64,000 nucleotides of DNA, from positions 62,001 through 126,000 of the forward strand of contig JAFYYV010000048.1 of the NCBI GenBank assembly GCA_017557405.1, written 5' to 3'. This document shows, one piece after another, positions 2,066 to 63,123 of this stretch. Origin of the DNA: Prevotella sp. (GTDB taxonomy: Bacteria > Bacteroidota > Bacteroidia > Bacteroidales > Bacteroidaceae). The notes under the pieces were generated by a model. The model saw nothing but the letters and a program-made list of their open reading frames with translations. It was not told the DNA's origin and did not search any database. Position 1 is the first letter of the stretch; each line of letters starts with the position of its first letter. The translations under genes and the position numbers were made by a program.

Positions 2066-2146
2066 TACATGCCACATGTAAGGTTATCACATGCCACATG
2101 TAGGGCTATTACATGCCACATGTAAGGTTGCTACATGCCACATGTA
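2066..2146. repeat. 22-bp-period array 1: four 15-bp near-palindromes (TACATG-CCA-CATGTA)
   Basis: Units start at 2066, 2088, 2110 and 2132, exactly 22 bp apart. Each is TACATG-CCA-CATGTA (the second starts with C), separated by 7-bp spacers that are less conserved than the units. It lies between the convergent ends of the M6 and GH3 genes. The arm sequence differs from the other four arrays, but the 6-3-6 architecture, the unit number and the period are the same. Confidence 0.9.
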
Positions 2147-2163
2147 CCAATGCCCTTTTACAT

Positions 2164-4518
2164 CTATTGCTTCAACAGATTTAATTTCTGTTGTGGATTC
2201 AAAGCATTTGTGGTCTTCTCGGTGTATTCCTTGGCGAGTTTGAACTGCGTGGTAGCACGGATGTCGGCCACGTTAGCGCCAATCAACACGTTGTAGGTGC
2301 CTGCCTCAGCGAGCCATTGGCTGCCTGCTTCGTCGAAACTGGCCAGTTCGCGCACGTCAATGGTCATGTTGAGCGTCTGGCTCTCACCGGGTTTCAGTTC
2401 GCGGGTCTTGGCAAAAGCCTTCAATTCTTTAGTGGGTTTCTCCAACCGTCCGGCAGGAGCGTTGATGTAAACCTGCGCCACTTCTTTACCACTCACACTA
2501 CCCGTGTTCTTCACATTAATGCTCACATTCACCTTATCGCCGTTCAGTTTCACAACAGGCTTTGAGTATTCAAACGTGGTGTACGACAGACCGAATCCAA
2601 AGGGATAGGCAACGTTCTTCCCAAAGGTGTCGAAGTAACGGTAGCCTACGTAGATGTCCTCTTCGTGGTTGGTGTAGGCGTGGCCAGGGATGGGCGTCTT
2701 GTTGCCAGACATCATCCTGAAAGTGTAGTCGTCGATTTGTCCTGGGAAGTTCTTTGTTGAGGCATGGTCGGTGGCTGCAATAGGCCATGTCATTGTGAGC
2801 TTTCCAGAAGGATTCACCTTACCTGTGAGGAGGTCGGCGATGGAGTTTCCTCCCTCCATACCTGGTTGCCAGGCGCATAGGATGGCATCGGGATAGCCAC
2901 TCCAAGAGGCCGTTTCGATGACGGAACCCGAGTTGATGATGACGATGACGGGCTTGCCAGCAGCGTGGAAGGCGTTGCAGACGTCAACAATCAAGTTGCG
3001 CTCCTCAGGGATGAGGTTGAACTCAGTCTCGATGTCGCGGTCGACGCCCTCACCAGCCTGACGACCGATGGTGATGATGGCTGCATCTGAGGCGTTCACC
3101 TCGTTGTTGATGGCGATAGGGCTAATGGCGATTTCGGGGTATTTCTGTTGTCCGAACTGCTCCATTTGGTACCATTTTGCAGGATGGCGCTCGGCTTGGA
3201 ATTTCGCTTTTGCGAACTCGACGTACTTACGATAGATGTCGGTGAGCTTGGCCGACGAACTGATGCCTGCGTTCTTAAGACCTTCGAGCATATCGACCAC
3301 GTATGGAGGATGGACACAGCCCGAGCCTGTACCACCAGAAAGGAAGTCGTAAGAGTTTTCACCAAAGAGTGAAACGGTCTTAATCCCACTCTTCCAAGGC
3401 AATGTGCCATTGTTCTTGAGCAGTACGATACCCTCGGCAGCACTCTGACGGGTGATGGCGGCATGGGCCTTGAAATCAGGATTATTCGAGGCGGGATACT
3501 TGCGGAAACTAGGTGTCTTCACGATGTATTCCAACATGCGGCGAACGTTCCGATCGACATCGGCAATGTTAAGTTTGCCATTCTTGACACCCTCGATAAT
3601 CTCCTGTACTTGGGCAGGTTGTCCTGGTTCCATCAGGTCGTTGCCAGCCTGAACCTCCACGATGGTGGGCAAACCCTCGCGAATGCCAATCCAGTCGGTC
3701 ATCACGATGCCTTTATAGCCCCAATCCTCACGCAGGATCTTGGTCAGCAGGTCGTGATTGCCCATCGAGAATTGGCCGTTAATCTTGTTATAAGAAGCCA
3801 TGATGGTCCATGGGTTGCTTTCGCGCACGGCGATTTCGAATCCACGCAGATAAATCTCTCTGGCAGCACGTTGGCTGAGACGTTCGTCGACACTGGTACG
3901 ATCGGTCTCTTGAGAGTTCACAGCGAAATGCTTGGCCGATACGCCTACGTCTTCCTTCTGCACACCTTGGATATAGGCAGCGGCAATCTTACCCGTCAGC
4001 AATGGATCTTCAGAGTAATATTCGAAGTTGCGTCCGCAGAGGGGATTGCGATGCAGGTTCATGCCAGGACCGAGAATCACGTCGCAACGGTATTCTTTGG
4101 TCTCGTTGCCGATGGCTTGGCCTACTTTATTAACCAATTCCGTGTTCCATGTGGAGGCCAGACAGGAACCGATGGGGAAGGCTGTGGCGTAGTAGGTCTT
4201 GTCGGTGCCCTTGCGGGTAGGGTCGATACGGACGCCAGCGGGGCCATCGGTCAATACGGTGGCTGGAATTCCTAATCGGGGGATGGCGGGTGATGTTCCT
4301 GCAGCTCCAGCCACGAGGTCGGCTTCGCCACCTACCGCGGCATTAGCGCCAAAGAAGGTGTTAGCTCCTCCCACGAGTAGTTTAGCTTTCTCTTCCAAGG
4401 TCATTGCCTTCATCACCTCATCGATGTTGTCGGCGCGTAGTTGTGGTGCTTGTTGTGCCATAGTTGTTGTTGCGAACATGCCAGCAGCGAGGCATGCGAT
4501 GATAGTTTTGTGTTTCAT
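2164..4518 (-). CDS. Glycoside hydrolase family 3 (beta-glucosidase-type), secreted
   Basis: 784 residues with a signal peptide ending near MAQQ. The N-terminal GH3 barrel has the KHFAVNSQETDR region (from about residue 196) and the nucleophile motif GIVMTDW, Asp near residue 275. The GH3 C-terminal domain and a fibronectin III-like domain (about 665-760) follow. The acid/base lies in the variable second domain and I cannot assign it securely. Predicted to release terminal beta-linked sugars from oligosaccharides in the periplasm. It lies 65 bp downstream of the TPR lipoprotein gene on the same strand and may be cotranscribed. Substrate (glucose, xylose or other) cannot be read from sequence. 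Confidence 0.9.
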   Translation of the reverse strand: MKHKTIIACLAAGMFATTTMAQQAPQLRADNIDEVMKAMTLEEKAKLLVGGANTFFGANAAVGGEADLVAGAAGTSPAIPRLGIPATVLTDGPAGVRIDPTRKGTDKTYYATAFPIGSCLASTWNTELVNKVGQAIGNETKEYRCDVILGPGMNLHRNPLCGRNFEYYSEDPLLTGKIAAAYIQGVQKEDVGVSAKHFAVNSQETDRTSVDERLSQRAAREIYLRGFEIAVRESNPWTIMASYNKINGQFSMGNHDLLTKILREDWGYKGIVMTDWIGIREGLPTIVEVQAGNDLMEPGQPAQVQEIIEGVKNGKLNIADVDRNVRRMLEYIVKTPSFRKYPASNNPDFKAHAAITRQSAAEGIVLLKNNGTLPWKSGIKTVSLFGENSYDFLSGGTGSGCVHPPYVVDMLEGLKNAGISSSAKLTDIYRKYVEFAKAKFQAERHPAKWYQMEQFGQQKYPEIAISPIAINNEVNASDAAIITIGRQAGEGVDRDIETEFNLIPEERNLIVDVCNAFHAAGKPVIVIINSGSVIETASWSGYPDAILCAWQPGMEGGNSIADLLTGKVNPSGKLTMTWPIAATDHASTKNFPGQIDDYTFRMMSGNKTPIPGHAYTNHEEDIYVGYRYFDTFGKNVAYPFGFGLSYTTFEYSKPVVKLNGDKVNVSINVKNTGSVSGKEVAQVYINAPAGRLEKPTKELKAFAKTRELKPGESQTLNMTIDVRELASFDEAGSQWLAEAGTYNVLIGANVADIRATTQFKLAKEYTEKTTNALNPQQKLNLLKQ

Positions 4519-4583
4519 AAATGTATTGTTATTTGAATATTTTCTCTCTCTTGTGCGCTTTATTTATTATAGTTTTCATTTTT

Positions 4584-6032
4584 TCATGTATTGTCATCAT
4601 CGTTCACTCTTAGTTTCTCAATGTCGAGCTTCTTCCCCAATCGGCTTTTTGTGGAACGAACGGCCTGTTCCGAACAGCAGAAGGAGCGTGCCTTCTCGTT
4701 ATCGGTCTTCCCACTGTGTTCCATGATGCAGAAGAAAGTTTCTTTCGGCGTGAGAGGATTCTCGGGGTTGTCGATGATTTCGGCTAGTGGGCGGTCCATT
4801 TGCCAAAGCACATCAACCACGGCTTGTTGCTCGCTCTTGCCCATCTGACTAATGTTCTCGCCGCTGACAATGCTGTAGAGCACGTCCACACCTCGTTTTG
4901 TTTCGGCCAGTTGGCTGTATAGTTCTTCACTTTGATAGGGTCTCGGGAGCCGTTGCTGCAGTTTGCTGAGTTCGTTCATTCGTTGATCGATGGTGTGTTT
5001 CAGTTGGTCGATAGTGGCATTGCGGTCGCTCAGCTGGTCGGCCAGCATATTCTTGGTGTCGCTGATGCGCTGTCTGAATCGCTTGTAGAGCGCACGTGTG
5101 CGATGGTTGAACCATACCGTGAGTCCCAATATGGCCAACAATAGGGCACAAACCACCAATGAGAACCAAAGTCTTTGCTCAGCTTTCTCGCGCTGCAAGG
5201 ACTCTCGGTCGAACTGGTTTTGAATTTTCACGATGTCTAAGTGGCGTGCTTGTGCGTTCAACGAGTCGTCGAGATGCCTCATCTGTCGCTCTGCCATCAG
5301 CGCACCTCGGTAGTCACCTTGCCGCTCCAACATGTCGCTTTGCGCCATCAGTTGGTTGTATCGCAAGGTGGCATCTCCTTTTTGAGGCATCACACTCATT
5401 AGCATCTGCGCATCGTGGTCGCGTCCTTGTTTGATATAGATTTGACAAAGCAATGCTAGGGCGTTACCCTCAGCAGAAGGGTCATCAGCCAGCATGGCGG
5501 CTTCGTAGGCATGTCGTTCCGCTTTTTCCAAATCGCCTTCGAGCATTTCGTGATAAGCTCCGTGTCGTTTGATGACTGATTGCTGTCCTCGGTCTGCCTG
5601 CTCATAGTAGCGCGCAGCCTCTAGTGTGACGCTCCATGCAGAGTCGTTCAACCCCATGTTGTAGAGGGTGTTGGCTTGGTTGATAAGCACGTCGACCACT
5701 AGTTCGGGTTTGCCATACTCTCGGGCATAGTCAAGGGCACGAACTTGGTATTGCAAGGCCAGTTCCTCTGCACCACTCGTCTCGTTGATCCATCCGATGT
5801 ATTGGCAGATTTGGTATTTTGTTTTTGCATTCTCTAGTGTGGGAAGCAGTTTCTCAGCTTTCTTCAGTTGCAGCATGGCGGCCGAGAAGTCTTGTCGGTC
5901 TATGTAGAGCAGGGCGCTGTCGAGTAGGGTACGCGCCATGAAATCCTCGGCACGATGTTCCGAGGTCCGCGTCGAGCATGCGGCAAAGAGCAGCAGCACG
6001 ACAGCAAGGCTGACGAACGTTGTCTTTTTCAT
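4584..6032 (-). CDS. TPR-repeat membrane-anchored lipoprotein with coiled coil and possible C-terminal HTH
   Basis: 482 residues. A lipoprotein signal with LLFAAC (Cys 19) is followed by TPR-like helices (about 30-280). A hydrophobic segment (SLVVCALLLAILGLTVWF, about 295-315), a coiled coil rich in Q/L/R, and a short C-terminal region (LTPKETFFCIME...CSEQAVRSTKSRLGKKL) that resembles a LuxR/sigma-4-like helix-turn-helix complete it. This layout is common in Bacteroidales TPR proteins proposed to link envelope sensing to transcription. A -7 box on the minus strand (CAAAGATA on the plus strand, 6044-6051) sits just before the ATG, supporting this start with a very short leader. Function is unknown; the HTH reading is an inference. 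Confidence 0.75.
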   Translation of the reverse strand: MKKTTFVSLAVVLLLFAACSTRTSEHRAEDFMARTLLDSALLYIDRQDFSAAMLQLKKAEKLLPTLENAKTKYQICQYIGWINETSGAEELALQYQVRALDYAREYGKPELVVDVLINQANTLYNMGLNDSAWSVTLEAARYYEQADRGQQSVIKRHGAYHEMLEGDLEKAERHAYEAAMLADDPSAEGNALALLCQIYIKQGRDHDAQMLMSVMPQKGDATLRYNQLMAQSDMLERQGDYRGALMAERQMRHLDDSLNAQARHLDIVKIQNQFDRESLQREKAEQRLWFSLVVCALLLAILGLTVWFNHRTRALYKRFRQRISDTKNMLADQLSDRNATIDQLKHTIDQRMNELSKLQQRLPRPYQSEELYSQLAETKRGVDVLYSIVSGENISQMGKSEQQAVVDVLWQMDRPLAEIIDNPENPLTPKETFFCIMEHSGKTDNEKARSFCCSEQAVRSTKSRLGKKLDIEKLRVNDDDNT

Positions 6033-6266
6033 GAAATGATAAGCAAAGATACGATTTTTCGCTCATAATCGGAAATTATCCAACAAAAAAGATGATGAAA
6101 GATAAGTAAAAACGTATAATGCGACAAAATGACATTCTCTTCTGACAATATGTCGCGATTTGCGGTTCGGCATATAGATTGCAAATGCATTAGTGAACTC
6201 GCAAGGGTTTTAAGTTCAATATCAAATATAACAACAACTTTAAAATTAAAATAGGAGGACAAAATT

Positions 6267-6692
6267 ATGAGACCAATGATTCACAGAAACGCATGGTTGC
6301 CAACAGTGTTCAACAGTTTGTTTGATGCCGACTTGATGCCGCGCACATCATCTACAGCTCCGGCCATCAATGTGCTCGAAAGCGATAAGGATTACACCGT
6401 AGAATTGGCCGCACCGGGCTTGAAGAAGGAGGATTTTAATGTCAACATCAACGATGAGGGTAACCTTGTCATCAAGATGGAACAAAAGCAGGAAAGCAAG
6501 GAGGAGGACAAAAAGGCCCACTACCTGCGCCGCGAGTTTAGCTACTCGAAGTACGAGCAGACGCTCATCCTGCCCGACGATGTCGAGAAGGAGAGCATTT
6601 CCGCCCGCATGGAGAATGGCGTGTTGACCATCTTGCTGCCTAAGCTACAGCAGACCATCACCAAGGTAGGACGTGCCATCGAGGTGATTTAA
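6267..6692 (+). CDS. Hsp20/alpha-crystallin small heat-shock protein
   Basis: 141 residues, a usual length. The alpha-crystallin domain spans about residues 35-130, with the APGLKKEDFNVNI start, the RREFSYSKYEQTLILPDDV core and the conserved ENGVLTILLPK strand. It ends in an IEVI C-terminal IxI-like motif used for oligomer assembly. It is an ATP-independent holdase for unfolded proteins in the cytoplasm. A clear AGGAGG ribosome site (about 6252-6257), unusual in this window, precedes the ATG and suggests strong translation. It is a single-gene unit ending in the terminator at 6754. Confidence 0.95.
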   Translation: MRPMIHRNAWLPTVFNSLFDADLMPRTSSTAPAINVLESDKDYTVELAAPGLKKEDFNVNINDEGNLVIKMEQKQESKEEDKKAHYLRREFSYSKYEQTLILPDDVEKESISARMENGVLTILLPKLQQTITKVGRAIEVI

Positions 6693-6753
6693 GCATCCCA
6701 GGCCTGATGGCCGACTATATAGAATCCATTCAAAGCATAGATGATTGACAACC

Positions 6754-6789
6754 GGCCTGCATCCCACCAACGTGGGTGCAGGCCTTTTT
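6754..6789 (+). terminator. Terminator of hsp20
   Basis: The GC-rich hairpin GGCCTGCA...TGCAGGCC (6754-6761 with 6777-6784) has an extended inner stem and is followed by a T run. It closes the hsp20 unit. Confidence 0.85.
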
Positions 6790-6923
6790 CGTGTGTTAGC
6801 ACTTCCGTTCCGTGTGTCAACACGCTTGTTCTATGAATCCTTAACTAGTTGACTTTCAGCCCTTTGTTCATTTCGTTTTGTGTCAATCACGTCAAGGGTA
6901 TTGCAAAAGCGTTTTCAGCATTG

Positions 6924-7018
6924 TATCTTTGCATTACCAATACTGCAAATCGGCAAAGTGCGACACGGCTTTTGTCTGGTCTCGTCCCCAGGCGCTGCAC
7001 GGTCGCATTTTCGTTTTT
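6924..7018 (+). ncRNA. Possible small RNA in the hsp20-recO gap
   Basis: The gap 6693-7049 holds no gene I can support. Within it TATCTTTG (6924-6931) is a good -7 box, with TTG at 6901-6903 at 20 bp. About 30 bp after the predicted start a TGCGAC / GTCGCA stem (6959-6964 with 7002-7007) is followed by TTTTCGTTTTT. A transcript of about 80 nt would therefore have its own promoter and terminator. There is no homology evidence. Confidence 0.25.
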
Positions 7019-7049
7019 ACTATGGATTTGAAATGCTACAATAATCTTA

Positions 7050-7772
7050 TCAAAACAATTCTTGCACCACCGCGAGCGATCGTAACTGTGGGAACCCGGG
7101 TACATGAAGCCGATAATAGGCAAGTATGAACTCCGTACAGCGGTTACGCTCGGCGCGAGACATGTGGAACAGGCGCATCGTCTCATAATCCATACGCATT
7201 AGCAGACCAATCTTCGCTGCTTCATCGGGCGATACGAAGTCGCTGTGCAAAGGTGCCTGTGGGGTGAATTCACCATTGCGCAGATCGAACCAGCAACCTT
7301 CTTGATAGTCTTCCAGATTAGGAAAGAAACCGATGAAGCGCGAAAGGCGCATCATGAACACCAAGTGGAAATTGGCAAAATGTCCTGAGCTGCCATCAAG
7401 CCATTGAAGACTGTGCTCGAGATAAGCGAAGAGAGGTTCGTTGAGTTGCTCGTCGTGTGTGGCATGAAGTAGGAACTCGGCCACGAAGAGTGAAATGGAG
7501 AGTTTGTAGGGATCGAAAGGTATTGATGCATATGGATTTCGCACACGCACATCTTTTAAACGTTGCAGTCGGATATTGGGGCGTAAGTCGAACTCCAAGT
7601 CTAGCATCGTGAGAGGTTGAAACAATTGTTTCTTCATGCGCGAATGTTGTGTTTTTCCGATGTTGATCATGAAGGAAGTGCGTCCATGCGCCTCCGTGAG
7701 CATGTCCACAATCAAACCCCGTTCGCCGTACTTGACAGCGCGGAGCACCAACGCACGTGTCTTCGTCATCAT
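7050..7772 (-). CDS. recO: DNA repair protein RecO
   Basis: 240 residues from the start MMTKTRALVLRAVKYGERG. The N-terminal OB fold (about 1-80) and a helical C-terminal domain match RecO, which loads RecA onto SSB-coated single-stranded DNA with RecR. The longer frame back to 7823 is rejected because a minus-strand -7 box (CAAAAATA on plus, 7782-7789) lies inside it and family members start at MTKTR. The four-cysteine zinc site of some RecO proteins is absent, as is usual in Bacteroidales. It is divergent from the tRNA-Glu/rpsT unit. Confidence 0.9.
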   Translation of the reverse strand: MMTKTRALVLRAVKYGERGLIVDMLTEAHGRTSFMINIGKTQHSRMKKQLFQPLTMLDLEFDLRPNIRLQRLKDVRVRNPYASIPFDPYKLSISLFVAEFLLHATHDEQLNEPLFAYLEHSLQWLDGSSGHFANFHLVFMMRLSRFIGFFPNLEDYQEGCWFDLRNGEFTPQAPLHSDFVSPDEAAKIGLLMRMDYETMRLFHMSRAERNRCTEFILAYYRLHVPGFPQLRSLAVVQELF

Positions 7773-7828
7773 ACCTTGGTACAAAAATACGAAAAAACAA
7801 GCATTCGGAGAAAATTTTTGCAAGAAAA

Positions 7829-7860
7829 TTTGGCCAGTTCGACAAAAAGCCGTAACTTTG
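7829..7860 (+). promoter_or_regulatory. Promoter of the tRNA-Glu/rpsT unit
   Basis: TTTG (7829-7832), a 20-bp spacer and TAACTTTG (7853-7860) match the Bacteroidota primary sigma consensus. The predicted start is near 7867, about 15 bp before the tRNA. Confidence 0.8.
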
Positions 7861-7881
7861 CACCCGCTAAAGAAGTCGCAT

Positions 7882-7953
7882 GGTCCCTTCGTCTATCGGC
7901 TAGGACGAGAGATTTTCATTCTCTAAAGAGGAGTTCGACTCTCCTAGGGACTA
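7882..7953 (+). tRNA. tRNA-Glu (anticodon TTC)
   Basis: A cloverleaf can be folded by hand: acceptor GGTCCCT with AGGGACT (last pair G-U), D stem GTCT/GGAC, anticodon stem AGAGA/TCTCT, loop TTTTCAT with anticodon TTC, T stem AGGAG/CTCCT and loop TTCGACT. CCA is not encoded. The 190-nt stretch to rpsT has no terminator, so the two are probably cotranscribed; it contains a small GCGCA-GTGA-TGCGC hairpin at 7973-7986. Confidence 0.95.
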
Positions 7954-8143
7954 CAACAGGAATCCGTCATCTGCGCAGTGATGCGCTACCAATGGGGAAA
8001 ACCGTTGGGAACTGGTGGCGGAGAATTTCGTAAAAAAGGGTCATATCCCGTTTACAAAGTCCGCCCAGGGCAGCCCTAAAAAGCGCAAGACCCCTAAGCT
8101 TCCGCAGATAGAATCATTAATTATCAATAAATTCAAAATCAAA

Positions 8144-8398
8144 ATGGCAAATCACAAATCATCACTGAAAAGAATCCGTCAGGACAAGGTGAGAAACCTG
8201 CATAACAGATATTATGCAAAGACGATGCGTAACGCTGTTCGCAAGCTGCGCGCTACAACAGACAAGGAAGAGGCTGTGAAGATGTACCCCGCTGTTCAGA
8301 AGATGCTGGACAAGCTCGCAAAGGTGAACATCATCCACAAAAACAAGGCTGCAAACCTGAAGTCAAGCCTCTGCCTTCACATCAAAAAGTTGGGCTAA
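8144..8398 (+). CDS. rpsT: 30S ribosomal protein S20
   Basis: 84 residues, start [13 protein letters not shown]. It is highly basic and helical, the usual form of S20, which binds 16S rRNA in the body of the small subunit. The frame continues upstream to 8015, but that extension has no homology I recognise and the family start is MANHKS. It lies 190 bp after tRNA-Glu and is probably transcribed with it from the 7829 promoter. The terminator at 8439 closes the unit. Confidence 0.95.
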
Positions 8399-13042: not shown

Positions 13043-13046
13043 GAGA

Positions 13047-19118: not shown

Positions 19119-19210
19119 CTGCAAAATTTCGAGATACCGAAACGAACAAACCAATATTTCCACTTGATGCATCATAATTTGATTTAGCACAATTGCCAGA
19201 GTGCCCTTTT

Positions 19211-19344
19211 GACAAAATGTAAGCTATGCTTTGAGCTTGTCAAAGCATAGCTCTGAGGCGGTCAAAGCATATCTTTGAGAGGGTCAAAGCATAGCTATGG
19301 GAAAATCAGTCGATAGATAAAAAATCTCAACAAAACAGTTATTT
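19211..19344. repeat. Dispersed 134-bp repeat, copy A, containing 22-bp-period array 2
   Basis: Copy B is at 62990-63123; by eye they differ at about ten positions with no gaps. Inside, four 15-bp units start at 19219, 19241, 19263 and 19285: GTAAGC-TAT-GCTTTG, CAAAGC-ATA-GCTCTG, CAAAGC-ATA-TCTTTG and CAAAGC-ATA-GCTATG. The rest of the gap 19073-19505 holds the gpmI promoter and the ftsZ terminator. Confidence 0.92.
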
Positions 19345-19430
19345 AAATGTGTGTTTTCCTTTACAAAATGTCACAAAATGGGCCTTTTTAGTGACAAAGT
19401 GATTTTTGCAAGTATCAGCGGATTAGCCAT

Positions 19431-35768: not shown

Positions 35769-35849
35769 TAAAGACCATCTTTTATCCGCTCAAGCCTATG
35801 CTTTTGAATGCTCAAAGCTATGCTTTCATCTCCTCAAAGCATAGCTTTA
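35769..35849. repeat. 22-bp-period array 3 between divergent mraZ and glsA-like genes
   Basis: Units start at 35769, 35791, 35813 and 35835: TAAAGA-CCA-TCTTTT, CAAGCC-TAT-GCTTTT, CAAAGC-TAT-GCTTTC and CAAAGC-ATA-GCTTTA, each 22 bp apart. The rest of the 665-bp gap 35457-36121 is AT-rich (T tracts near 35521-35700) and holds the two promoters; I see no gene in it. Confidence 0.9.
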
Positions 35850-50346: not shown

Positions 50347-50515
50347 CAAAGACCATCTTTGACCGCCTCATTTGTGGCTTTTGACCCGCTCATTGCATAG
50401 CTTTGACAGCCTCATTCCATAGCTGTCGAAACTGCTAACGTTCGGGATAGTTAGAATGTGATTCTGCTCTCCTCTCACTAACGCGCAGTTTTGACCTTGT
50501 CATTTGTGGTCTTTG
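50347..50515. repeat. 22-bp-period array 4, with in-phase outlying units
   Basis: Units start at 50347, 50369, 50391 and 50413: CAAAGA-CCA-TCTTTG, CATTTG-TGG-CTTTTG, CATTGC-ATA-GCTTTG and CATTCC-ATA-GCTGTC. A fifth clear unit CATTTG-TGG-TCTTTG is at 50501, exactly 88 bp (4 x 22) after the fourth, and a weaker one at 50479. The gap 50241-51041 holds no gene. Confidence 0.88.
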
Positions 50516-50607
50516 ACAGAGGCGCGGTGGCACTCGCCGAAAAAGGCAAATTTTTTCATTTCTGAAAACAAAATGCATATACTGCATCATTGAATTATTT
50601 CAAAAAG

Positions 50608-50822
50608 AAACTGTTCAACTGTTCAACTGTTCAACTGTTCGCTGTTCGCTCGGTGTAAAACTGACAAAATGCGACAATATGGCAGGGAAATATGACTCAA
50701 AGCGAACGAACGAACAGTAGAACAGTTTCCAAAAAAGAATTGCATTTGAGAGTTATTATTATATATATAATAATAAAAGTTTTTCACACTCAATCGAACA
50801 AACTGTTCTACTGTTCGTTCGC
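50608..50822. repeat. Nested inverted repeats upstream of the C10-LRR gene
   Basis: A 22-bp perfect inverted repeat (50707-50728 with 50800-50821) flanks a 24-bp perfect AT palindrome (50753-50776). A direct relative of the right arm, AACTGTTC repeated four times and then GCTGTTCGCTCGG, lies at 50608-50652. Arms A and B share a GTGTAAA extension. Confidence 0.85.
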
Positions 50823-50991: not shown

Positions 50992-51041
50992 CAGTGTAAT
51001 CATGAAACTATTTGCAACAACTAAAAACAACTAATGAAATA

Positions 51042-52958
51042 ATGAAAAAGACACTGCTTGTTAGAAGACTAACGCTGTTTATCTTTTTCCTGATGTTGCC
51101 TTTCGTCGTGTCAGGAAAAACTGGTAAGGAAATCATTCAAGAGAATGGTTTCAAGTCCCATGTGGCCCCATTGTTGACAACGAAATGGGCGCAATACGGA
51201 GGTGGAGAGAATGCTTTTCTTCCCTACGTCAATGACCCAGATAGGGAAAACTTGCAAGCGAAAACAGGGTGTGGGGCAACCGCCTTGGCACAGATCATGA
51301 AATTCTGGAACTACCCCCAAAGTGGCAAAGGGGTCAATTCGTACCATTGGCAGCATCCTAATACAAATGAATTGATCAGTCGATATGTTGACTTCTCTGA
51401 ATCCCACTATGACTGGGACAACATGATTGACAAATACTTCAATAATGAAAACCGCACCCAGAAGCAGATTGACGCAGTGGCTAAATTGATGTACGACATC
51501 GGCATTGCCCTTGAGATGCAATATAAAGACTGGAGTACCGCCACGCAAATAGAATACATCTCGTCGGTCTTGAAGAAAAACTTTGGTTATAATCCATATT
51601 TGCGCATAGTGAGATATGTTCCTGGCGGATACACAATGGACGAGTGGCTCACCGTCATCTACCGCGAGTTGTCGGAAGGACGACCTATTCTCGTAGGGGC
51701 GAACAATTACTTTGGGGACAGACATATTTTTGTGGCAGACGGATACGACGAAGATGGAAAAGTGCATTTCAACCTTGGCCATGCAAAAGACAGCGAGAAC
51801 AAGTATTATGACTTGATTTCACCAGGACGAGATGGGAATGATTGGCTTTATAACATGCGCATGATCATAGGCATCTGCCCTGAAGAAATACCTGCTGAAA
51901 CAAACCAGATCCACGTGTCGAAACCTGGAACAATTTTGGAAGCAATGGGAGGTGAGACAAAGGCAAAGAAAATATGCCGTCTGAAAGTGACGGGGAAACT
52001 GAACAAAGCCGACATTGATGTGTTGAAAAGACTCAGTCGCGCTGATATTGCACAACCAGACATATCGGATATAGGCCAATTATCATACATAGATCTCTCC
52101 GAAGCATCAATGGAGAATGACGAATTGCCAGACAGTGCTTTCTGGTATAGGAAAAGTGACGAACTGCCAAGTTACACTTTACAGACCATCAAACTCCCTT
52201 CCAATCTAAAACGAATTGGCCATCATGCATTTCGGTCATGCTTGGGTTTATTAGAGGTCTCGATACCTTCCACTGTTACGACAATAGGAAATATGGCATT
52301 CTTCGGGTGTAGATATTTGGAAAGCATCGTTTTACCTGAATCGGTCAAACAGATAGGAAGCAATGCATTTGCAAGAGCAAAAGTCGATAATCTGGAGATT
52401 GCTTCGAGAAACCCATTTTATTATGTTGCCAATAATACGATATTCACCGCCGATGGAAAGAAAATCATCGCATATACTGGGAAAAGAAAGTGTGACTATG
52501 TCATTCCCGAGGGAGTGGAGATTATAAACGGCTTTTATGTGTTTTCCTTAAAATCGAACTTGACATCTCTCACGATTCCTTCTTCCCTGACAAGTTTCAA
52601 TTATGATTATTTCGAATATTGTCCAGGCATTACTGACGTTTACTCCTATGCAACGATACCGAGTGTTCAAGGGCAACTACTGTTTTGGATACAATACAAT
52701 GAGATAGTGTTGCATATTCCTATTGGGTATAAGGGAAAATACGAAGAAGCCTATAGACAGATCAACAATAATGATTGGAGTGGCGTGGGGACTATTGTTG
52801 AAGATATCGACCCTGGGTTCCTGAGAGTGGAAGAGGTATTTGGCCAGCCTTCTCCAAAAAGCCAGAATGTTTACGACTTGAATGGAAGAAGAATACCGAC
52901 CTCTCTGCAACGGAACAAACAGATTTATATCATTAATGGCAGAAAAGTGGTATATTGA
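51042..52958 (+). CDS. C10 peptidase fused to a BspA-like leucine-rich repeat domain
   Basis: 638 residues from MKKTLLVRRLTLF, with signal peptide. The C10 domain follows directly with no Spi-type propeptide: Cys about residue 77 (TGCGATALAQIM) and His about 228 (DRHIFVADGYDEDG). The NWGWGG segment conserved in this family (and in the other C10 protein here) is replaced by NLGHAKDSEN, so the active-site Trp is missing. Residues 330-590 are BspA-type LRRs (LPSNLKRIGHHAF, IPSTVTTIGNMAFFGC, LPESVKQIGSNAFA). It ends in YDLNGRR...QIYIINGRKVVY, a type IX-like tail. It is AT-richer than its neighbours. Protease activity is uncertain; adhesion or binding is possible. Confidence 0.85.
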   Translation: MKKTLLVRRLTLFIFFLMLPFVVSGKTGKEIIQENGFKSHVAPLLTTKWAQYGGGENAFLPYVNDPDRENLQAKTGCGATALAQIMKFWNYPQSGKGVNSYHWQHPNTNELISRYVDFSESHYDWDNMIDKYFNNENRTQKQIDAVAKLMYDIGIALEMQYKDWSTATQIEYISSVLKKNFGYNPYLRIVRYVPGGYTMDEWLTVIYRELSEGRPILVGANNYFGDRHIFVADGYDEDGKVHFNLGHAKDSENKYYDLISPGRDGNDWLYNMRMIIGICPEEIPAETNQIHVSKPGTILEAMGGETKAKKICRLKVTGKLNKADIDVLKRLSRADIAQPDISDIGQLSYIDLSEASMENDELPDSAFWYRKSDELPSYTLQTIKLPSNLKRIGHHAFRSCLGLLEVSIPSTVTTIGNMAFFGCRYLESIVLPESVKQIGSNAFARAKVDNLEIASRNPFYYVANNTIFTADGKKIIAYTGKRKCDYVIPEGVEIINGFYVFSLKSNLTSLTIPSSLTSFNYDYFEYCPGITDVYSYATIPSVQGQLLFWIQYNEIVLHIPIGYKGKYEEAYRQINNNDWSGVGTIVEDIDPGFLRVEEVFGQPSPKSQNVYDLNGRRIPTSLQRNKQIYIINGRKVVY

Positions 52959-56996: not shown

Positions 56997-57063
56997 AGGT
57001 ATTCAATTTAAGATGGTTAGTGTGTAATTATGCGCAAAATAAACAAAAAATTTTCGATAAAGT

Positions 57064-57095
57064 GTTGCATTCCATGTTATTTTTGTTTAATTTTG
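57064..57095 (+). promoter_or_regulatory. Promoter of tdh
   Basis: GTTG (57064-57067), 20-bp spacer, TAATTTTG (57088-57095); predicted start near 57102. Confidence 0.7.
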
Positions 57096-57138
57096 CCGTT
57101 GTAATACATAAATAGAAAGCACATCCTAACAATACATC

Positions 57139-58107
57139 ATGAAAAATATACTGGTAATTGGATCGACGGGCCAGATTGGTTCTGAACTGACAAGGGAATT
57201 GAGACGGCTTTATGGTGGCGAGCATGTCGTGGCGGGTTACATCACGGGTGCCGAACCCAAGGGTGAACTTCGCGATGGCGGTCCCAGCGAAATCGCCAAT
57301 GTGATGGATGGTGAGCACATCATGGAGGTGGTGAGGAAGCACCACATCGACACCATCTACAACCTGGCTGCCCTGCTCTCAGTGGTGGCGGAATCAAAAC
57401 CTCGGCTGGCTTGGCAGATAGGCATCGACGGTCTTTGGAACATTCTGGAGGTGGCTCGTCAAGAGGGGTGCGCCGTGTTCACGCCCAGCAGCATTGGCTC
57501 GTTCGGCGTCAACACACCCCACGACATGACGCCGCAGGACACCATCCAACGCCCATTGACCATCTACGGCGTGTCGAAGGTGACAACCGAGCTCATCAGC
57601 GACTATTATCATCATAAATACAGGGTTGACACGCGGTCGGTGCGTTTTCCTGGCATCATCTCTTATCTGACCCCTCCAGGTGGCGGGACCACCGACTATG
57701 CCGTTGACATCTTCTACTATGCCGTGCGTGGCGAGCGGTTCACATGTCCCATTGCGGCGGGCACTCGCATGGATATGATGTATATGCCCGATGCCTTGAA
57801 GGCGGCCATCCAGCTGATGGAGGCCGACCCGACGCGGTTGGTGCACCACAATGGCTTCAATGTGGCGGCGATGAGCTTCGACCCTGACATGATCTACCAT
57901 GCAATCAAGCAGTACAAGCCCGATTTCGAGATGGTGTATGATGTGGACCCGTTGAAGCAGCACATCGCCGAGAGCTGGCCCGACATGATGGACGATTCGT
58001 GTGCCCGCGAGGAGTGGGGGTGGCATCACGAATACAACCTGCCGGCAATGACGAAGGACATGCTGGAGAAACTCAGTGAGCGGTTGTTGAGGGAGGGAAG
58101 TCTTTGA
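57139..58107 (+). CDS. L-threonine 3-dehydrogenase, SDR (epimerase-like) type
   Basis: 322 residues. Extended SDR: NAD site ILVIGSTGQIGSEL, NLAALLSVVAE, the TPSSIGSFG strand and catalytic IYGVSKVTTEL (YxxxK). The RFPGIISYLTPPGGGTTDYAV motif is typical of the SDR-type threonine dehydrogenases that differ from zinc-dependent Tdh. It oxidises threonine to 2-amino-3-ketobutyrate with NAD+. Divergent from kbl (142 bp apart), which supports the call. Confidence 0.92.
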   Translation: MKNILVIGSTGQIGSELTRELRRLYGGEHVVAGYITGAEPKGELRDGGPSEIANVMDGEHIMEVVRKHHIDTIYNLAALLSVVAESKPRLAWQIGIDGLWNILEVARQEGCAVFTPSSIGSFGVNTPHDMTPQDTIQRPLTIYGVSKVTTELISDYYHHKYRVDTRSVRFPGIISYLTPPGGGTTDYAVDIFYYAVRGERFTCPIAAGTRMDMMYMPDALKAAIQLMEADPTRLVHHNGFNVAAMSFDPDMIYHAIKQYKPDFEMVYDVDPLKQHIAESWPDMMDDSCAREEWGWHHEYNLPAMTKDMLEKLSERLLREGSL

Positions 58108-58771
58108 CACTTTGCCCCGTGTAGGTGTTGACCACCAGCCGCAGGTGGCTTTGGCGCAATTCGTCGGTCAAAGGGATGCTGGCATAGACGCGGTTGCTGT
58201 AGTATTGAGGTATGTCGCCTTGGTCGTGGAGCAAAGTGAGGACGGTGACGCCGTCTTCGTTCGTTTCGGTGAGGACACCAATGGATTGTCGGGCGTCTTC
58301 ATCGTCGCTTTTTCCTGTTTTCACATAGAACGAGAAGTTCAAGAAACTACCGTTGGCACTGATCCATGAACTCTCGAAGGTCACTGGGTCAAAGATGGGT
58401 TTCTTCACTTTCGACGTGTCGAGGGGCTGGAGCACATAGACTTGCGTCATCTTCACTACCTCGGCGCCTTCGGGCTTGTCGTTGAAATAGAGCAACGCAC
58501 GATAAAGAGAGTCGGTGGTGGTGGTCCAACGTGCCTTGAAGGGTTTGTCGATATTGATGCGGCTGTTGTTGTCGTCGATGGCGTAGTCGACAGTGCTGTC
58601 GTTGGCGACATGGCTCATGACGAACTCCGCCCGCAGGTAGCTGTAGTCACCATCGCCTGTGTCGTAGTTGTCGCTGGTGCAGTTCCAAAAAGCAAGCACG
58701 AAAAGGAGGAAAGATGCAACGAGTGCCGTCTTCCTTCCTACATGTGTCGGTCTTTGGGTGGGATGGTTCAT
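58073..58771 (-). CDS. NigD-like lipoprotein
   Basis: 232 residues from MNHPTQRPTHVG; the long open frame upstream to 59515 is a shadow of the acyltransferase gene and is rejected. A lipobox-like LAFWNC precedes an N-terminal OB-like domain and a C-terminal Ig-like domain, the NigD pattern. Bacteroidota NigD-like proteins are poorly understood surface or periplasmic lipoproteins. The ATG overlaps the stop of the acyltransferase gene (ATGA, 58768-58771). Its 3' end overlaps the 3' end of tdh by 35 bp in antisense. Confidence 0.8.
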   Translation of the reverse strand: MNHPTQRPTHVGRKTALVASFLLFVLAFWNCTSDNYDTGDGDYSYLRAEFVMSHVANDSTVDYAIDDNNSRINIDKPFKARWTTTTDSLYRALLYFNDKPEGAEVVKMTQVYVLQPLDTSKVKKPIFDPVTFESSWISANGSFLNFSFYVKTGKSDDEDARQSIGVLTETNEDGVTVLTLLHDQGDIPQYYSNRVYASIPLTDELRQSHLRLVVNTYTGQSVKDFPPSTTAH

Positions 58772-59979
58772 GATTTCAGTTTCAATTGGTTGATGGCTGG
58801 GTTGGCATACATGGTGAGGATGCGTTCGCGTAGAAAAGCCTCGTCTTTTCCGTCGAGTTCGACTTTCGCAATGCGCTCTTTCACGTATTCGTCGAAGCGC
58901 TGTTTGTCGGCATCGGAATAGTGCTCGGCGTAGGCGGAGTCGCCGTTCAGCTCGTCGATGGCGATGAAGTTGTTGGGATAGAGTTGGTATCTCTGGTGCA
59001 GCTCGTTGTCGATGCGCTGGCTGAGCGCGGTGAAGAACTCGTTCTTGGGCAGGTCGGCGAGTTCGTCGAGCCATTGGTTGACGGGCGTGCCGCAATGGTA
59101 GTGCACACGACCCTTGTAGCCGAAGATGCCTGTCTTCATGTTGTCGAGGTCGTCCTGTCGGCTTTTCTTGAACGCGGGGTTGTCGCGTTTCTGCTGGAAC
59201 TCTTGAGCCTTCAGGTAGTCGCAGGGGTCGAACTCGTAGCTGATGGTGAGAGGCACGATGTTGAGGTCGCGCAGCTTCTCCACCAATGTCCCTTCGCCAC
59301 CCATGGCCAGCATCTTGAGCACCGAGTCTTGCGTGCGGTCGTCGGAGTCTTTCGCGCGTCCTTCGCGTTGTGCAATCCAGATGTTCTCCTTCTTCTCGGT
59401 CACGGCGTAGTGGATGTAGCTGCTCATGAGCTGGCTCGAGCGCAGCATCTCCTTGGGAGTGAGACCGCGGCGCACGGTAAAGGCCTTGTTCATGCGGACA
59501 AGCCGCTTGATCCACGGATAGATGAGCAAATTGTCGCCGATGCCGATCTCGACGGTGGTGGGATAGCCGTGATCAATGAGCATGACATCGAGAAACGCCG
59601 AGTCGAGCACAATGTCGCGGTGGTTGCTGATGAACGTGTAGCGTTGTGTCTTGTCGTTGGCGGCCAATGGTCCTTCATCGAAGGTGCAGCCATCGGTGTG
59701 CTTGCGGATGATGTGGCGAACGATGGGTTTCATGAAACGCAACTGGAAGTCGAGCGGCGTCTTCACGCCCGTGAAAGCCAACTTCAGCAGTCCATTGCGC
59801 ACTCCTTTGGGAAGCCACGGGGCAAAACCTTTCAGCACCAGTGCAAACTGGCGGTCGTTGAGCAGTTCGCGGAATGCCTGCTGCATCTCGCCTGCTTCAT
59901 AAGGACGTATCTCGTCGAATTCGGCTGTTGGTAGTGGGGTGTCGGCCATAAGCGAATTATGCTGTTGGTGAAGGTTCAA
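58768..59979 (-). CDS. 1-acylglycerol-3-phosphate acyltransferase-like protein
   Basis: 403 residues, or 393 from the Met at 59949. PlsC-type motif SNHRDIVLDSAFL (about residue 117), the ENIWIAQREGRAKDSDD motif and VPLTISYEFDPCDY are visible. It is much longer than classical PlsC and has a Bacteroidota-specific C-terminal part. Likely a phospholipid or lipid A-related acyltransferase at the inner membrane. It starts 3 bp after the ddl stop (or 33 bp with the shorter start) and overlaps nigD. Confidence 0.82.
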   Translation of the reverse strand: MNLHQQHNSLMADTPLPTAEFDEIRPYEAGEMQQAFRELLNDRQFALVLKGFAPWLPKGVRNGLLKLAFTGVKTPLDFQLRFMKPIVRHIIRKHTDGCTFDEGPLAANDKTQRYTFISNHRDIVLDSAFLDVMLIDHGYPTTVEIGIGDNLLIYPWIKRLVRMNKAFTVRRGLTPKEMLRSSQLMSSYIHYAVTEKKENIWIAQREGRAKDSDDRTQDSVLKMLAMGGEGTLVEKLRDLNIVPLTISYEFDPCDYLKAQEFQQKRDNPAFKKSRQDDLDNMKTGIFGYKGRVHYHCGTPVNQWLDELADLPKNEFFTALSQRIDNELHQRYQLYPNNFIAIDELNGDSAYAEHYSDADKQRFDEYVKERIAKVELDGKDEAFLRERILTMYANPAINQLKLKS

Positions 59980-59982
59980 GAA

Positions 59983-60984
59983 TCAGAACTGGTTCTCGAC
60001 AATTTCCGTCAAGACGTCTTTGATGTCGAGTCTTGCTGCACGCACTTGTTGTGGGATGAAACTGGTGGCGGTCATACCAGGAGTGGTGTTGATTTCCAAC
60101 ATGTTGATCTTGTCGGAGCCATCGGCGTTGCGAGTGATAATGTAGTCGATGCGAATGATGCCGTTGCAATGCAAGATGTCGTAGATGCGGCTGGTTTCGT
60201 CTTGCAGGGCTTTGGTCAGCTCGGGCGAAATGCGAGCAGGCGTGATTTCTTGCACCTGCCCGTTGTATTTTGCGTCGTAGTCGAAGAACTCGTTCGTAGT
60301 GACCACCTCGGTGACGGGGAACACTACGCTCTTCTCTTTCGTCTTGTAGCATCCGACGGTCACCTCCGTGCCTTGCATGTAGGCCTCGATCATCACCTCG
60401 TCGCACTCCATGAATGCATTGCGGAGGGCGGGAGCCAGTTGGTCGGCGTTCTTCACCTTCGAGACACCGAAGCTGCTACCATCGGCGGCGGGCTTTACGA
60501 AGCAAGGCATTCCCAGTCGGGCTTCAATTTCAGCCTCGGAGTATTTGTTCTCCTCACCTCGGTGCAGCAGGATGCTGTCGGCGACATTCACATTGAAGGC
60601 GCGCAGGTAGTTGTTGAGCACATATTTGTCGAATGTCAGCGCCTCGACAAGCACGTTGCTGGTGGAGTAGGGGATGTTGAGCAGTTCGAAGTATCCCTGC
60701 ATGATGCCGTTCTCGCCAGGTGTTCCGTGGATGGTGATATAGGCATAGTCGAACCAGACGGTCTCACCGTCGTATTTGAAAGAGAAGTTGTTCTTGTCGA
60801 TTCTCGCCGTATCGCCATTATCCAAGTTCACATGCCAGTCGAGTCCTTTGATGTCGACGATATAGATGTTGTAACGTTCTTTGTCGAAGAAGGAATAGAG
60901 ACCTTGAGCCGAACGAAGTGAAACGTCGTGCTCTGATGAATCGCCACCGCACACGATGGCTATGTTCCGTTTTGTGATGTTCAT
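59983..60984 (-). CDS. ddl: D-alanine--D-alanine ligase
   Basis: 333 residues, ATP-grasp. The N-terminal GGDSSEHDVSLRSA, the IHGTPGENGIMQGYFELLNIPY region (in part), PCFVKPAADGSSFGVSKV and MLEINTTPGMT are present. It makes the D-Ala-D-Ala end of the peptidoglycan stem. In many bacteria ddl lies in the dcw cluster; here it is 25 kb away with rluD and a PASTA protein, the common Bacteroidales arrangement. Confidence 0.96.
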   Translation of the reverse strand: MNITKRNIAIVCGGDSSEHDVSLRSAQGLYSFFDKERYNIYIVDIKGLDWHVNLDNGDTARIDKNNFSFKYDGETVWFDYAYITIHGTPGENGIMQGYFELLNIPYSTSNVLVEALTFDKYVLNNYLRAFNVNVADSILLHRGEENKYSEAEIEARLGMPCFVKPAADGSSFGVSKVKNADQLAPALRNAFMECDEVMIEAYMQGTEVTVGCYKTKEKSVVFPVTEVVTTNEFFDYDAKYNGQVQEITPARISPELTKALQDETSRIYDILHCNGIIRIDYIITRNADGSDKINMLEINTTPGMTATSFIPQQVRAARLDIKDVLTEIVENQF

Positions 60985-61032
60985 TTGTTTTGTCAGTTAT
61001 GGTCGCGCTGTGTCGCGGCCTTTATTGTTTGT

Positions 61033-62127
61033 TTATTGTACGAAAGTGTCTTGTGTGGTTCCGCTAATGTAGTTGCGCCATTTCTCGATGACGGCCTGCA
61101 TGTCTTGTGGAAGGGGTGAGGTAAAGTCCATCTGCTGTCCTGTCGTGGGGTGTCGGAATCCCAACGTCTGTGCATGAAGCACCTGGCGTGGGCAGATGGC
61201 GAAGCAGTTCTGGATGAACGCCTTGTAGGAAGACGACCGTTGTCCGCGCAGGATCTCGGTGCCACCATATCGTTCGTCGCAGAAAAGCGGATGGCCTATG
61301 TGCCGCATGTGGGCGCGGATTTGGTGGGTGCGACCTGTCTCGAGTACACACTCGATGAGCGTGGTGTATCCGAAGCGTTCCACCACCCGGTAGTGTGTCA
61401 CGGCTGGCTTTCCTATTTCGGAATCGGGTGGGAATACCATCATACGCAAACGGTCGCGTGGGTCGCGGGCGATGTTGCCCTCGATACGCCCTTCGTCTTC
61501 GGTGAAGTTGCACCAGACGAGCGCCAGATAGGAGCGATGGGTGGTTTTGTTGAAGAACTGAAGTCCGAGTTTCGATTTCGCCTCGGGCGTCTTTGCTACC
61601 ACCAAAAGACCGCTGGTGTCTTTGTCAATGCGGTGGACAAGTCCCACTTCAGGATCGTTGGGGTCGAAAGCAGGATTGTCTTTCAGATGCCAGGCAACGG
61701 CGTTGATGAGCGTTCCATGAAAATTCCCTGCACCGGGGTGTACCACCATACCTGCGTCTTTGTTGATGACCATCAGTTGGTCGTCCTCATAGACGATGTT
61801 CAGGGGAATGTCTTCGGGTTCAATGGTCGAGTCGTGGCGCGGTCGGTCGAGCATCAGGGTAACTACATCGCCCGGTCGCACCTTGTAATTGCTCTTCACG
61901 GGACGTTCGTTCACATGCACGAAACCAGCGTCGGCGGCTTTCTGAATGCGGTTGCGCGACGAATGCTGCAGTTTCTCCAGCATGTATTTGTCAACGCGCA
62001 AAGGAGCCTGTCCTGGATCTACGACGAATTTGAAATGCTCGTAGAGTTCCGGCTGCTCACCATCCAGCTCTTCAGAAACGCCTTCGATGTCGAACAGTTC
62101 GTCTTGTTCCATGTAGTCCTCGTTCAT
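61033..62127 (-). CDS. rluD: RluD-type 23S rRNA pseudouridine synthase
   Basis: 364 residues. The S4 domain (about 40-100) and the catalytic motif HRIDKDTSGLLVVAK with its Asp are intact, then GRTHQIRAHMRHIGHPL. Family RluA/RluD; RluD sites are 1911, 1915 and 1917 in helix 69, but the specific target is inferred from length and S4 domain only. Gap of 48 bp to ddl. Confidence 0.9.
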   Translation of the reverse strand: MNEDYMEQDELFDIEGVSEELDGEQPELYEHFKFVVDPGQAPLRVDKYMLEKLQHSSRNRIQKAADAGFVHVNERPVKSNYKVRPGDVVTLMLDRPRHDSTIEPEDIPLNIVYEDDQLMVINKDAGMVVHPGAGNFHGTLINAVAWHLKDNPAFDPNDPEVGLVHRIDKDTSGLLVVAKTPEAKSKLGLQFFNKTTHRSYLALVWCNFTEDEGRIEGNIARDPRDRLRMMVFPPDSEIGKPAVTHYRVVERFGYTTLIECVLETGRTHQIRAHMRHIGHPLFCDERYGGTEILRGQRSSSYKAFIQNCFAICPRQVLHAQTLGFRHPTTGQQMDFTSPLPQDMQAVIEKWRNYISGTTQDTFVQ

Positions 62128-62154
62128 TGCTTTCTCTCTTCAGGGTGCCTTTCA

Positions 62155-62865
62155 TTACTCGCTAGGAGTCTCTCCGACTGTGCCGTCGAGTGGTTCAGCG
62201 GGCTCGGGGAAATTATGGTCGGTTTGATCGATGATCTCGAATCCGTCTTCTTCGTCTTCCTCGTCAAATGGATAGACGGGGTCGATATAATCCACGGAGT
62301 CGCTCGAGTCGCGCTGTCCGTTGCCCACTTGTATGATGAGTTCGTCTTCAATCGATATCTTGTCGCCAGTGGCCACATGACGGCCTTTCACGGTTATTCC
62401 ATACACCCAGTCGCGCTCGCCGGGCACGAACTCGGGCATTCCCAGCTTGAAGCCGATGGCCGATAGTTTTGCCATTGCCTCACGCAACGAACTGTTGTCG
62501 ATGACGTCGGGCAACGTGATGGTGGGCGTTGACGGTGCATTGAGCGTTACATAGATGATACGCCCCGATTTCACGTGCTCGCCGGGCGCGATCGACTGCT
62601 CGAGAATGCAGTCGGGTGGCAGCGACTTCACATATCCCGTATCGCTCACTTCCATTACAAGCCCCATATCGTCGAGGATGCGTTCGGCGTCTTTGTAGGC
62701 TTTGTGCTTCACGTTTGGCACCACGAGCGACTCGCCATGATGCGTATAGAAGTCGAGCCCGTATTTCACGCCGATGGCCAGCAACACCACGACCACCGCC
62801 ATCGCAGCCAGATTGCCCCAAAGGTAGCCGCTGACGAACTTGCGGAAAAATTCAGATGTCTTCAT
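62155..62865 (-). CDS. PASTA-domain membrane protein
   Basis: 236 residues. One membrane span (AAMAVVVVLLAIGVKYGL) and three PASTA-like repeats (VPNVKHKAYKDAERIL, LPDVIDNSSLREAMAKL, and a third weaker region to about 205), then a very acidic tail. PASTA domains bind uncross-linked peptidoglycan or lipid II; there is no kinase or transpeptidase domain. First gene of the PASTA-rluD-ddl cluster. A minus-strand -7 box is at 62891-62898. Confidence 0.88.
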   Translation of the reverse strand: MKTSEFFRKFVSGYLWGNLAAMAVVVVLLAIGVKYGLDFYTHHGESLVVPNVKHKAYKDAERILDDMGLVMEVSDTGYVKSLPPDCILEQSIAPGEHVKSGRIIYVTLNAPSTPTITLPDVIDNSSLREAMAKLSAIGFKLGMPEFVPGERDWVYGITVKGRHVATGDKISIEDELIIQVGNGQRDSSDSVDYIDPVYPFDEEDEEDGFEIIDQTDHNFPEPAEPLDGTVGETPSE

Positions 62866-62905
62866 CCTATAAATGTTTGTTTTCTGAATGCAAAGATATA
62901 CAAAT

Positions 62906-62937
62906 AAATGAATAATGAAGAATGAAGGGTGAAGAAT
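62906..62937. repeat. 7-bp word array upstream of the PASTA gene
   Basis: TGAA recurs at 62909, 62916, 62923 and 62930, giving a strict 7-bp period. Confidence 0.7.
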
Positions 62938-62989
62938 TTTGATTTCGAGGATGGTTTTTTAGTCGTTTCGACTCCAATCGATGGCATTT

Positions 62990-63123
62990 GACAAAATGTA
63001 AGCTATGCTTTGGGCTTGTCAAAGCATAGCTTTAAGGCGGTCAAAGCATATCTTTGAGAGGGTCAAAGCATAGCTGTGGCAAAATCGGACGATAAGTAAA
63101 AAATCTCAACAAAACGGTTATTT
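62990..63123. repeat. Dispersed 134-bp repeat, copy B, containing 22-bp-period array 5
   Basis: Copy A is at 19211-19344. Units start at 62998, 63020, 63042 and 63064: GTAAGC-TAT-GCTTTG, CAAAGC-ATA-GCTTTA, CAAAGC-ATA-TCTTTG and CAAAGC-ATA-GCTGTG. As with copy A, it lies in a minus-strand tandem gap, upstream of one gene (PASTA) and beyond the terminator of another (rpmH). Confidence 0.92.

Follow-up and report, generated by a model that had tools for sequence, protein, structure and literature searches.

Phased palindrome arrays in a Prevotella genome belong to a genus-wide family of intergenic repeats with fixed spacing and changing words

Five intergenic gaps in a 64,000-nucleotide stretch of Prevotella sp. 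DNA (assembly GCA_017557405.1, contig JAFYYV010000048.1, positions 62,001 to 126,000 of the forward strand; hereafter the window) each hold a row of four 15-bp units, composed of a 6-bp arm, a 3-bp centre and a second 6-bp arm, with 7 bp between units and therefore a step of 22 bp. What are these arrays, and why is their spacing kept so exactly? The analysed genome (G000, 3.56 Mb in 54 contigs; the window is G000:C38:62001-126000) and its relatives answer the first question in part: the arrays belong to a real genus-wide family in which the lattice is fixed and the words drift, and whose elements are dispersed within genomes without their neighbours. As to the second question, we give about an even chance to the explanation that the five arrays are copies of genus-wide, non-coding, intergenic dispersed elements whose core would be a row of in-phase sites for a dimeric protein that binds DNA cooperatively. 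The features are listed below by window position on the strand as read; palindromy is scored over four units in the 22-bp register (maximum 24), and R1 is a covariance model built from 35 arrays.

2066..2146, array 1: four units TACATG-CCA-CATGTA (one with CACATG); palindromy 23/24
19219..19299, array 2: GTAAGC-TAT-GCTTTG, then three CAAAGC-ATA units; palindromy 19/24, also matched by R1
35769..35849, array 3: centres CCA, TAT, TAT, ATA; palindromy 18/24, also matched by R1
50347..50427, array 4: degenerate, centres CCA, TGG, ATA, ATA; palindromy 15/24, recognised by its sequence through R1
62998..63078, array 5: unit order as in array 2; palindromy 19/24, also matched by R1
19197..19410, family A element around array 2: limits approximate, by flank similarity to other copies in the genome
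62980..63187, family A element around array 5: limits approximate, by flank similarity

All 20 unit starts given in the first-pass annotation of the window proved right, none of the five arrays departs from the 22-bp step, and each of the 20 centres is ATA, TAT, CCA or TGG. The same annotation described every array as four near-palindromes, which simplifies matters: several units lack palindromy, and in array 4 it is at chance level. In 100 third-order Markov sequences, each of the window length, the maximum score averaged 15.95 and never exceeded 18, with an average of 0.04 positions at 18 or above. Arrays 1, 2 and 5 exceed chance by palindromy alone, array 3 only equals the highest null value, and array 4 (6, 3, 4 and 2 in its successive units) does not rise above the null. 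When other periods from 15 to 40 were tried, the real window reached 18 at periods 18 and 33 only. Arrays 3 and 4 are assigned to the family on their sequence relationship, not on palindromy: R1 recognises array 4 with E 8e-12 and array 3 with E 2e-9, its training alignment including arrays 1 and 4 themselves.

For the genome as a whole a chance origin is rejected. The unit word CAAAGCATAGCTTTG occurs 302 times (both strands, up to two mismatches) against 8 in the reversed control, and TACATGCCACATGTA 57 times against 4. A unit scan of loci fetched from the source genome yielded 95 distinct arrays, and at least 98 when three later loci are added, while the same scan of 303,498 reversed bases yielded none; since it looks for the 22-bp step, arrays with another step would be missed. 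The first-pass annotation had named an abundance no greater than in shuffled sequence as its refutation; an excess was found, and the lattice also recurs in other Prevotella genomes, as described below. R1 gave at least 146 matches in the source genome with 150 of 948 candidates scored, an array often being counted on both strands. The large model searches scored 11-39 candidates per genome, so that their counts are lower bounds, and both R1 and the second model, R2, are biased toward their training words. The number four is not fixed: 30 of the 95 arrays have that many units, and there are 28 with five, 21 with six, 10 with seven and 6 with three. Several units are non-palindromic, yet the 22-bp register is kept.

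In 75 of the 95 arrays at least 100 bp of flank is common to another copy, a count in which the shared flank takes in neighbouring related regions in a few cases. Judged from these similarities, most arrays form the core of larger dispersed elements, chiefly of two families. Family A, to which arrays 2 and 5 belong, is about 0.2 kb long and has four units, with mostly 18-25 bp of flank to the left of the array and about 108-111 bp to the right. Family B is about 387 bp long; its units, mostly six or seven, have about 110 bp of the element to their left and about 150 bp to their right. Its alignment comprises 26 copies over about 390 bp; among the 18 at full length, most pairwise matches extend over some 385-390 bp and stop at the same two ends, while 8 of the 18 share additional one-sided sequence with some partners. 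In being non-coding and dispersed, with sharply defined ends and flanks that are unrelated, these copies (26 aligned, 18 full-length) show a trait of miniature inverted-repeat transposable elements (MITEs). The units of family B hold fixed positions in the row, which indicates that the row is copied as a whole. Five further family B left ends lie beyond the first locus list: three hold one array each, and two (L131 and L060) gave no array of three or more units in a palindrome scan that also missed the other three. Array 1 has no shared flanks among the loci compared.

Just outside the family B left end two alternative conserved sequences are seen, TGAAAAA-CACG and TTGGTATTTTTATTT (the variants are exemplified by L087, L088, L092 and L098 versus L085, L093, L097 and L101), which suggests two subfamilies or two target types. 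A further flank family adjoins the arrays of L041, L043, L102, L104, L106 and L119; it carries an open, possibly coding frame that reaches about 94 aa and has no Pfam match.

Outside the source genome, R1 matches bring the number of genomes to 27 of 119, the source included, all of the same genus. The relatives' arrays retain the 15-bp dyads, the 7-bp spacers and the 22-bp step, and use other words: AAAAGC-TAT-GCTTTT in G039, AAAAGG-NNN-CCTTTT in G065, G010, G044, G053 and G004, and TACAAG-ATG-CTTGTA in G028. A two-unit pattern scan of genome contigs returned at least 120 stretches. Among the 80 listed, 76 are named as Prevotella or its kin (P. bivia, P. histicola, P. brunnea, P. illustrans, Segatella, Hoylesella, Leyella and Marseilla), and the other four, with two units each, come from Pygmaiobacter, Chlorobium, a member of Bacillota and Xanthomonas. 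The first 120 stretches, which contain three near-duplicate pairs, comprise 55 arrays of four units, 27 of five, 17 of two, 13 of three and 8 of more than five. The centre word tends to follow the species, being TTA/TAA in P. brunnea, TGC/GCA in P. histicola and TAT/ATA in CAJOIX. The two centre sequences ATA/TAT and CCA/TGG, noted in the first-pass annotation for the five arrays, belong to the source species and do not characterise the family.

In 38 diverse arrays nearly every unit carries A at positions 2 and 4 and T at positions 12 and 14, as in most of the species examined, so that along the lattice A-type half-sites and T-type ones take turns at steps of about 11 bp. Standard pairs fill 89.7% of the cells against 70.1% after shuffling, and covariation is 0.456 against 0.132, in an alignment that mixes species and consists of hand-picked, well-formed arrays; sliding the partner columns by 1-3 lowers pairing to 61.3% or less. 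Of 398 genomes in the genus, 157 (G000 among them) are matched by R2, the model made from these arrays, at 11 scored candidates per genome. In a sample of 149 genomes of the order it matches only G000 and one other, the latter with two overlapping weak matches. No convincing array was seen in 160 kb of G016, a plasmid search with array 2 and its flanks, which carry source-species words only, gave no match, and a scan of 2.9 million viral contigs gave two matching stretches.

The positions of the arrays are not conserved between species, as far as a small sample goes. The first-pass annotation had proposed conservation of position in related strains as a check; at 20 loci of relatives from other species little sharing appeared, three having an open reading frame (ORF) more than 60% identical to one at a source-genome array locus, and in one of these (L325 with L071) the array lies beside the same gene end. 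This is roughly at or below a chance expectation (arrays touching about 190 of about 2,800 genes, the gene number being assumed).

The relative G131 has two replicons of 1,965,935 and 708,235 bp. R2 gave 147 matches there on both strands (150 of 1289 candidates scored), or at least 74 places if each was counted at most twice. A block of about 190 bp, derived from 25 copies of which 23 could be oriented, is conserved: TGTAAATATTTTTC, a four-unit 22-bp array, and ATCTTTACAAAA. In loci L344-L368 three 7-bp words, in either direction and shuffled among positions, make up most of the arrays, and a word and its own complement often occur within one array. The end motif of the block, GAATTWTCTTTACAAA, is a family B end too; an end sequence is therefore common to species with differing words. 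It has 22 matches in 288 kb of source-genome array loci, mostly 132-134 bp from the array edge, against one in reversed sequence; in other species, with three mismatches allowed, it was found at 10 of 117,396 positions near arrays and at 25 of 1,646,682 farther away.

A separate case may be G024, a relative without model matches: at L291:9499-9579 its GGTAAT-NNN-ATTACC units recur every 22 bp, and the spacers between them are conserved and CACGTNG-like. Here the constant and variable parts of the lattice seem to be exchanged.

In 38 of the 120 arrays from the contig scan, about a third of those of other species, a dyad TGA-NNN-TCA lies outside the array (on one side in 37, on both in one). Measured from the centre of the end unit, its own centre is 33 bp away in 23 cases and 22 bp away in 16, whereas the average at 140 other distances is 0.14. 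Since 22 and 33 are both multiples of 11, this cap dyad is in phase with the lattice, which strengthens the phased-binding explanation. In the source genome 15 arrays have the dyad at 47 bp, and the listed peaks include neither 22 nor 33 bp; the 47-bp dyads appear to be family B copies and hence non-independent. A uniform large outer palindrome around the arrays was not found.

Taken with these observations, a phased protein-binding array seems the best fit. A protein with two-fold symmetry would sit on every unit, always on one face of the helix since 22 bp is about two turns; the two-turn spacing and dyad symmetry emphasised in the first-pass annotation are both supported. Binding is predicted to be cooperative along the row, the binder's preference for the central word would drift between species, and a trans-acting factor would spread the elements. 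Such binding could serve the element, by mobilising or silencing it, or else the host, in control at operon boundaries. Non-palindromic cores are tolerated, the complementarity of arm positions 5 and 6 in G131 falling to 0.58 and 0.43 of units and that of position 3 in the source genome to 0.35, which argues for a DNA-level explanation. In addition, mismatches in source-genome arrays are G.T in 104 cases and A.C in 107, as expected for DNA dyads.

A number of results weigh against phased binding by a protein. No binding protein or mobilising gene was found. By eye, neither terminal inverted repeats nor target duplications are clear, the family B ends having only a short TTTTGT-like similarity and no target duplication. 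The spacers contain no second dyad beyond their outer bases (complementarity 0.53, 0.31 and 0.21 against 0.49, 0.37 and 0.32 in shuffles), and a spacer dyad was rejected on these figures. Flanking genes give no functional hint by their orientation: around 89 arrays it is tandem in 39, divergent in 28 and convergent in 22, and in window gaps longer than 100 bp it is 7, 6 and 4, respectively. Nor is there a constant neighbour, the biggest family of adjoining genes, the TonB-dependent receptors, being present at 9 of 240 loci. The hand-picking behind the covariation figures counts here as well. Finally, in three species the predicted RNA folding of the arrays is far stronger than that of dinucleotide shuffles (mean z -5.4, -4.2 and -5.8; up to 15 arrays per species, 30 strands each), so that DNA binding is not the sole reading of the arrays.

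A bolder version of the proposal, which we regard as rather unlikely, is that a protein assembling cooperatively into filaments reads the genus-wide lattice, and that the word it recognises would be rewritten in each species while the geometry (11-bp half-steps, 22-bp dyads and the in-phase cap) stays fixed. If true, many regular nucleoprotein patches would lie between operons and, borne by selfish DNA, form the bacterial equivalent of a chromatin boundary.

The arrays may instead be selfish repeats only, the row of units being the mover-binding sites of a non-autonomous mobile element without a host role. We consider this a serious possibility, though short of an even chance. Dispersal with element-specific flanks speaks for it, as do the near-chance sharing of positions between species (3 of 20 loci) and the end motif common to different species. 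The mover, however, was not found, and in CAJOIX the arrays, which were selected by pattern, have 0.74 identity, whereas adjoining flanks have 0.32-0.34 and sequence far away 0.23. Moreover, about three-quarters of the positions of PINSR, a published Prevotella repeat compared below, are common to two strains (PMC4755523).

Less probable, though still to be reckoned with, is a function in single-strand pairing, in which the units would form rows of hairpins or unit-to-unit stems in RNA or single-stranded DNA, for example as REP-like substrates of a hairpin transposase. The folding energies and the strong covariation of the arms agree with it; in G131, where single palindromes are poor, the frequent presence of a word and its complement within one array keeps folding strong, and G.T exceeds A.C among mismatches in CAJOIX (19 versus 6) and G131 (15 versus 10). 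Against it, the source genome lacks such an excess, the arm positions of G131 and the source genome noted above are poorly complementary, and hairpins need neither an exact 22-bp step nor an in-phase outer dyad. The Y1 transposase family also has no match in two array-rich genomes, G012 and G039.

Intrinsic curvature, with A4/T4 tracts phased every 11 bp bending the helix and bending as the function, is very unlikely: many relatives do alternate AAAA and TTTT at 11 bp, but the 22-bp step is equally present in arrays without A4 tracts (source-genome TACATG and CACATG, G028 TACAAG and G024 GGTAAT), so that curvature cannot be general. Rows of intrinsic terminators at operon ends can hardly be the explanation: arrays are intergenic and some do stand next to operon ends, for instance after ftsZ, but no strong G+C stem with a T run behind it is seen in their units, convergent genes are not preferred (22 of 89), and ordinary terminator-like hairpins occur separately beside some arrays.

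Several known systems resemble the arrays in part. CRISPR arrays consist of near-identical repeats with spacers of some 25-40 bp and are accompanied by cas genes; identity with them is rejected by the 7-bp spacers and the variable units. REP, BIME and REPIN sequences are species-specific short palindromes, intergenic and present in many copies, that are moved by RAYT (Y1) transposases. The present elements are likewise dispersed, species-specific palindromes between genes; REPs, however, are not known to come in rows of four at a fixed 22-bp step. In the source genome the Y1 family (PF01797) has one weak match, of 24.9 bits against a cut-off of 23, and it has none in G012 (99% complete) and G039 (81%), on which ground Y1/RAYT was rejected as the general mover.

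The closest published repeat is PINSR, described as a 188-bp intergenic non-coding repeat of the P. intermedia group with 177 and 184 copies per genome, without reported terminal inverted repeats, and mostly absent from strain-specific conjugative and mobilisable transposons (PMC4755523). Like the present elements it is intergenic, high-copy and found in Prevotella, and the G131 repeat, with its central array, is of similar size; the window elements measure about 0.2 and 0.39 kb. It was reported from a small clade only, on the basis of repeat-specific PCR and a database search, and the available text mentions no 22-bp dyad lattice (PMC4755523), whereas the lattice described here spans much of the genus with other words. 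From its likeness, by description, to the G131 repeat we infer that PINSR is a member of the lattice family. The lattice is not confined to the P. intermedia/nigrescens group, being found also in P. bivia, P. histicola, Segatella, Hoylesella and others, and the window arrays are for this reason not filed as PINSR. The statement that the arrays match no described element thus survives in part: an Rfam scan at the gathering threshold found no family over them (its sole match is a tRNA-Glu), and a search of open-licence PMC papers found no recognised account of a 22-bp palindrome lattice in Prevotella, but a likely member has been published as PINSR, with no lattice in the accessible part of that text.

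BrickBuilt of Porphyromonas gingivalis is a dispersed intergenic minisatellite-MITE of a related bacterium, in which a short tandem repeat likewise stands between a leader and a tail (PMC4596501). It differs in having 23-nt direct repeats in 1 to 22.8 copies and small terminal inverted repeats; it has 19 copies in one strain, and the main text of its description never speaks of palindromes (PMC4596501). Identity was rejected, the step being 22 bp, not 23 nt, in all five window arrays.

What is new here is the lattice as a genus-wide feature; the dispersed-repeat kind is known, with one probable published member. Bacterial dispersed repeats are usually recognised by their sequence, and that probable member was reported as a clade-specific repeat; since it is the geometry that persists here and not the sequence, much of the family escapes searches by homology. 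Fixed spacing combined with drifting words would imply a co-evolving reader, and it may offer a handle on a chromosome-wide binding system or a mobilising mechanism in Prevotella, which are hard to manipulate.

None of the 95 source-genome arrays lies within a gene by codon-scored calls, and six have no called gene on one side of the locus. Neighbours were clustered from ORFs within 800 bp of an array at 240 partly overlapping loci, and the clusters cover 9, 6, 5, 5, 4 and fewer loci. Pfam assigned eight cluster representatives to a TonB-dependent receptor, peptidase S13, an aldolase, a pyruvate oxidoreductase, an HU-like protein and, for three, no family. A coding parent next to the arrays was rejected, no transposase being among these eight (one five-locus cluster, its representative partly masked, lay outside the scan). 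A gene of the HU-HIG family, with an HU-like DNA-binding domain (PF18291, on the L130 copy), adjoins three arrays, L065, L114 and L130, and two of these loci have flank sequence in common too. HU-like proteins are candidate binders.

Within the window, array 1 lies between convergent peptidase M6 and GH3 genes. Array 2 stands 206 bp past the 3' end of ftsZ and 146 bp upstream of a phosphoglycerate mutase gene, and array 3 is 312 bp upstream of an mraZ-like gene; the two flank an apparent division and cell-wall cluster, array 2 coming after ftsZ and array 3 before the mraZ-like gene. On its other side array 3 has a G-rich GGTGGGGG stretch. Array 5 is upstream of a PASTA-domain gene. Array 4 is placed between divergent radC-like and peptidase C10/leucine-rich repeat genes; near it, at 50595-50650, are short tandem repeats of AACTGTTC, and beyond it, at 51012-52955, a peptidase C10 domain is combined with BspA-type leucine-rich repeats.

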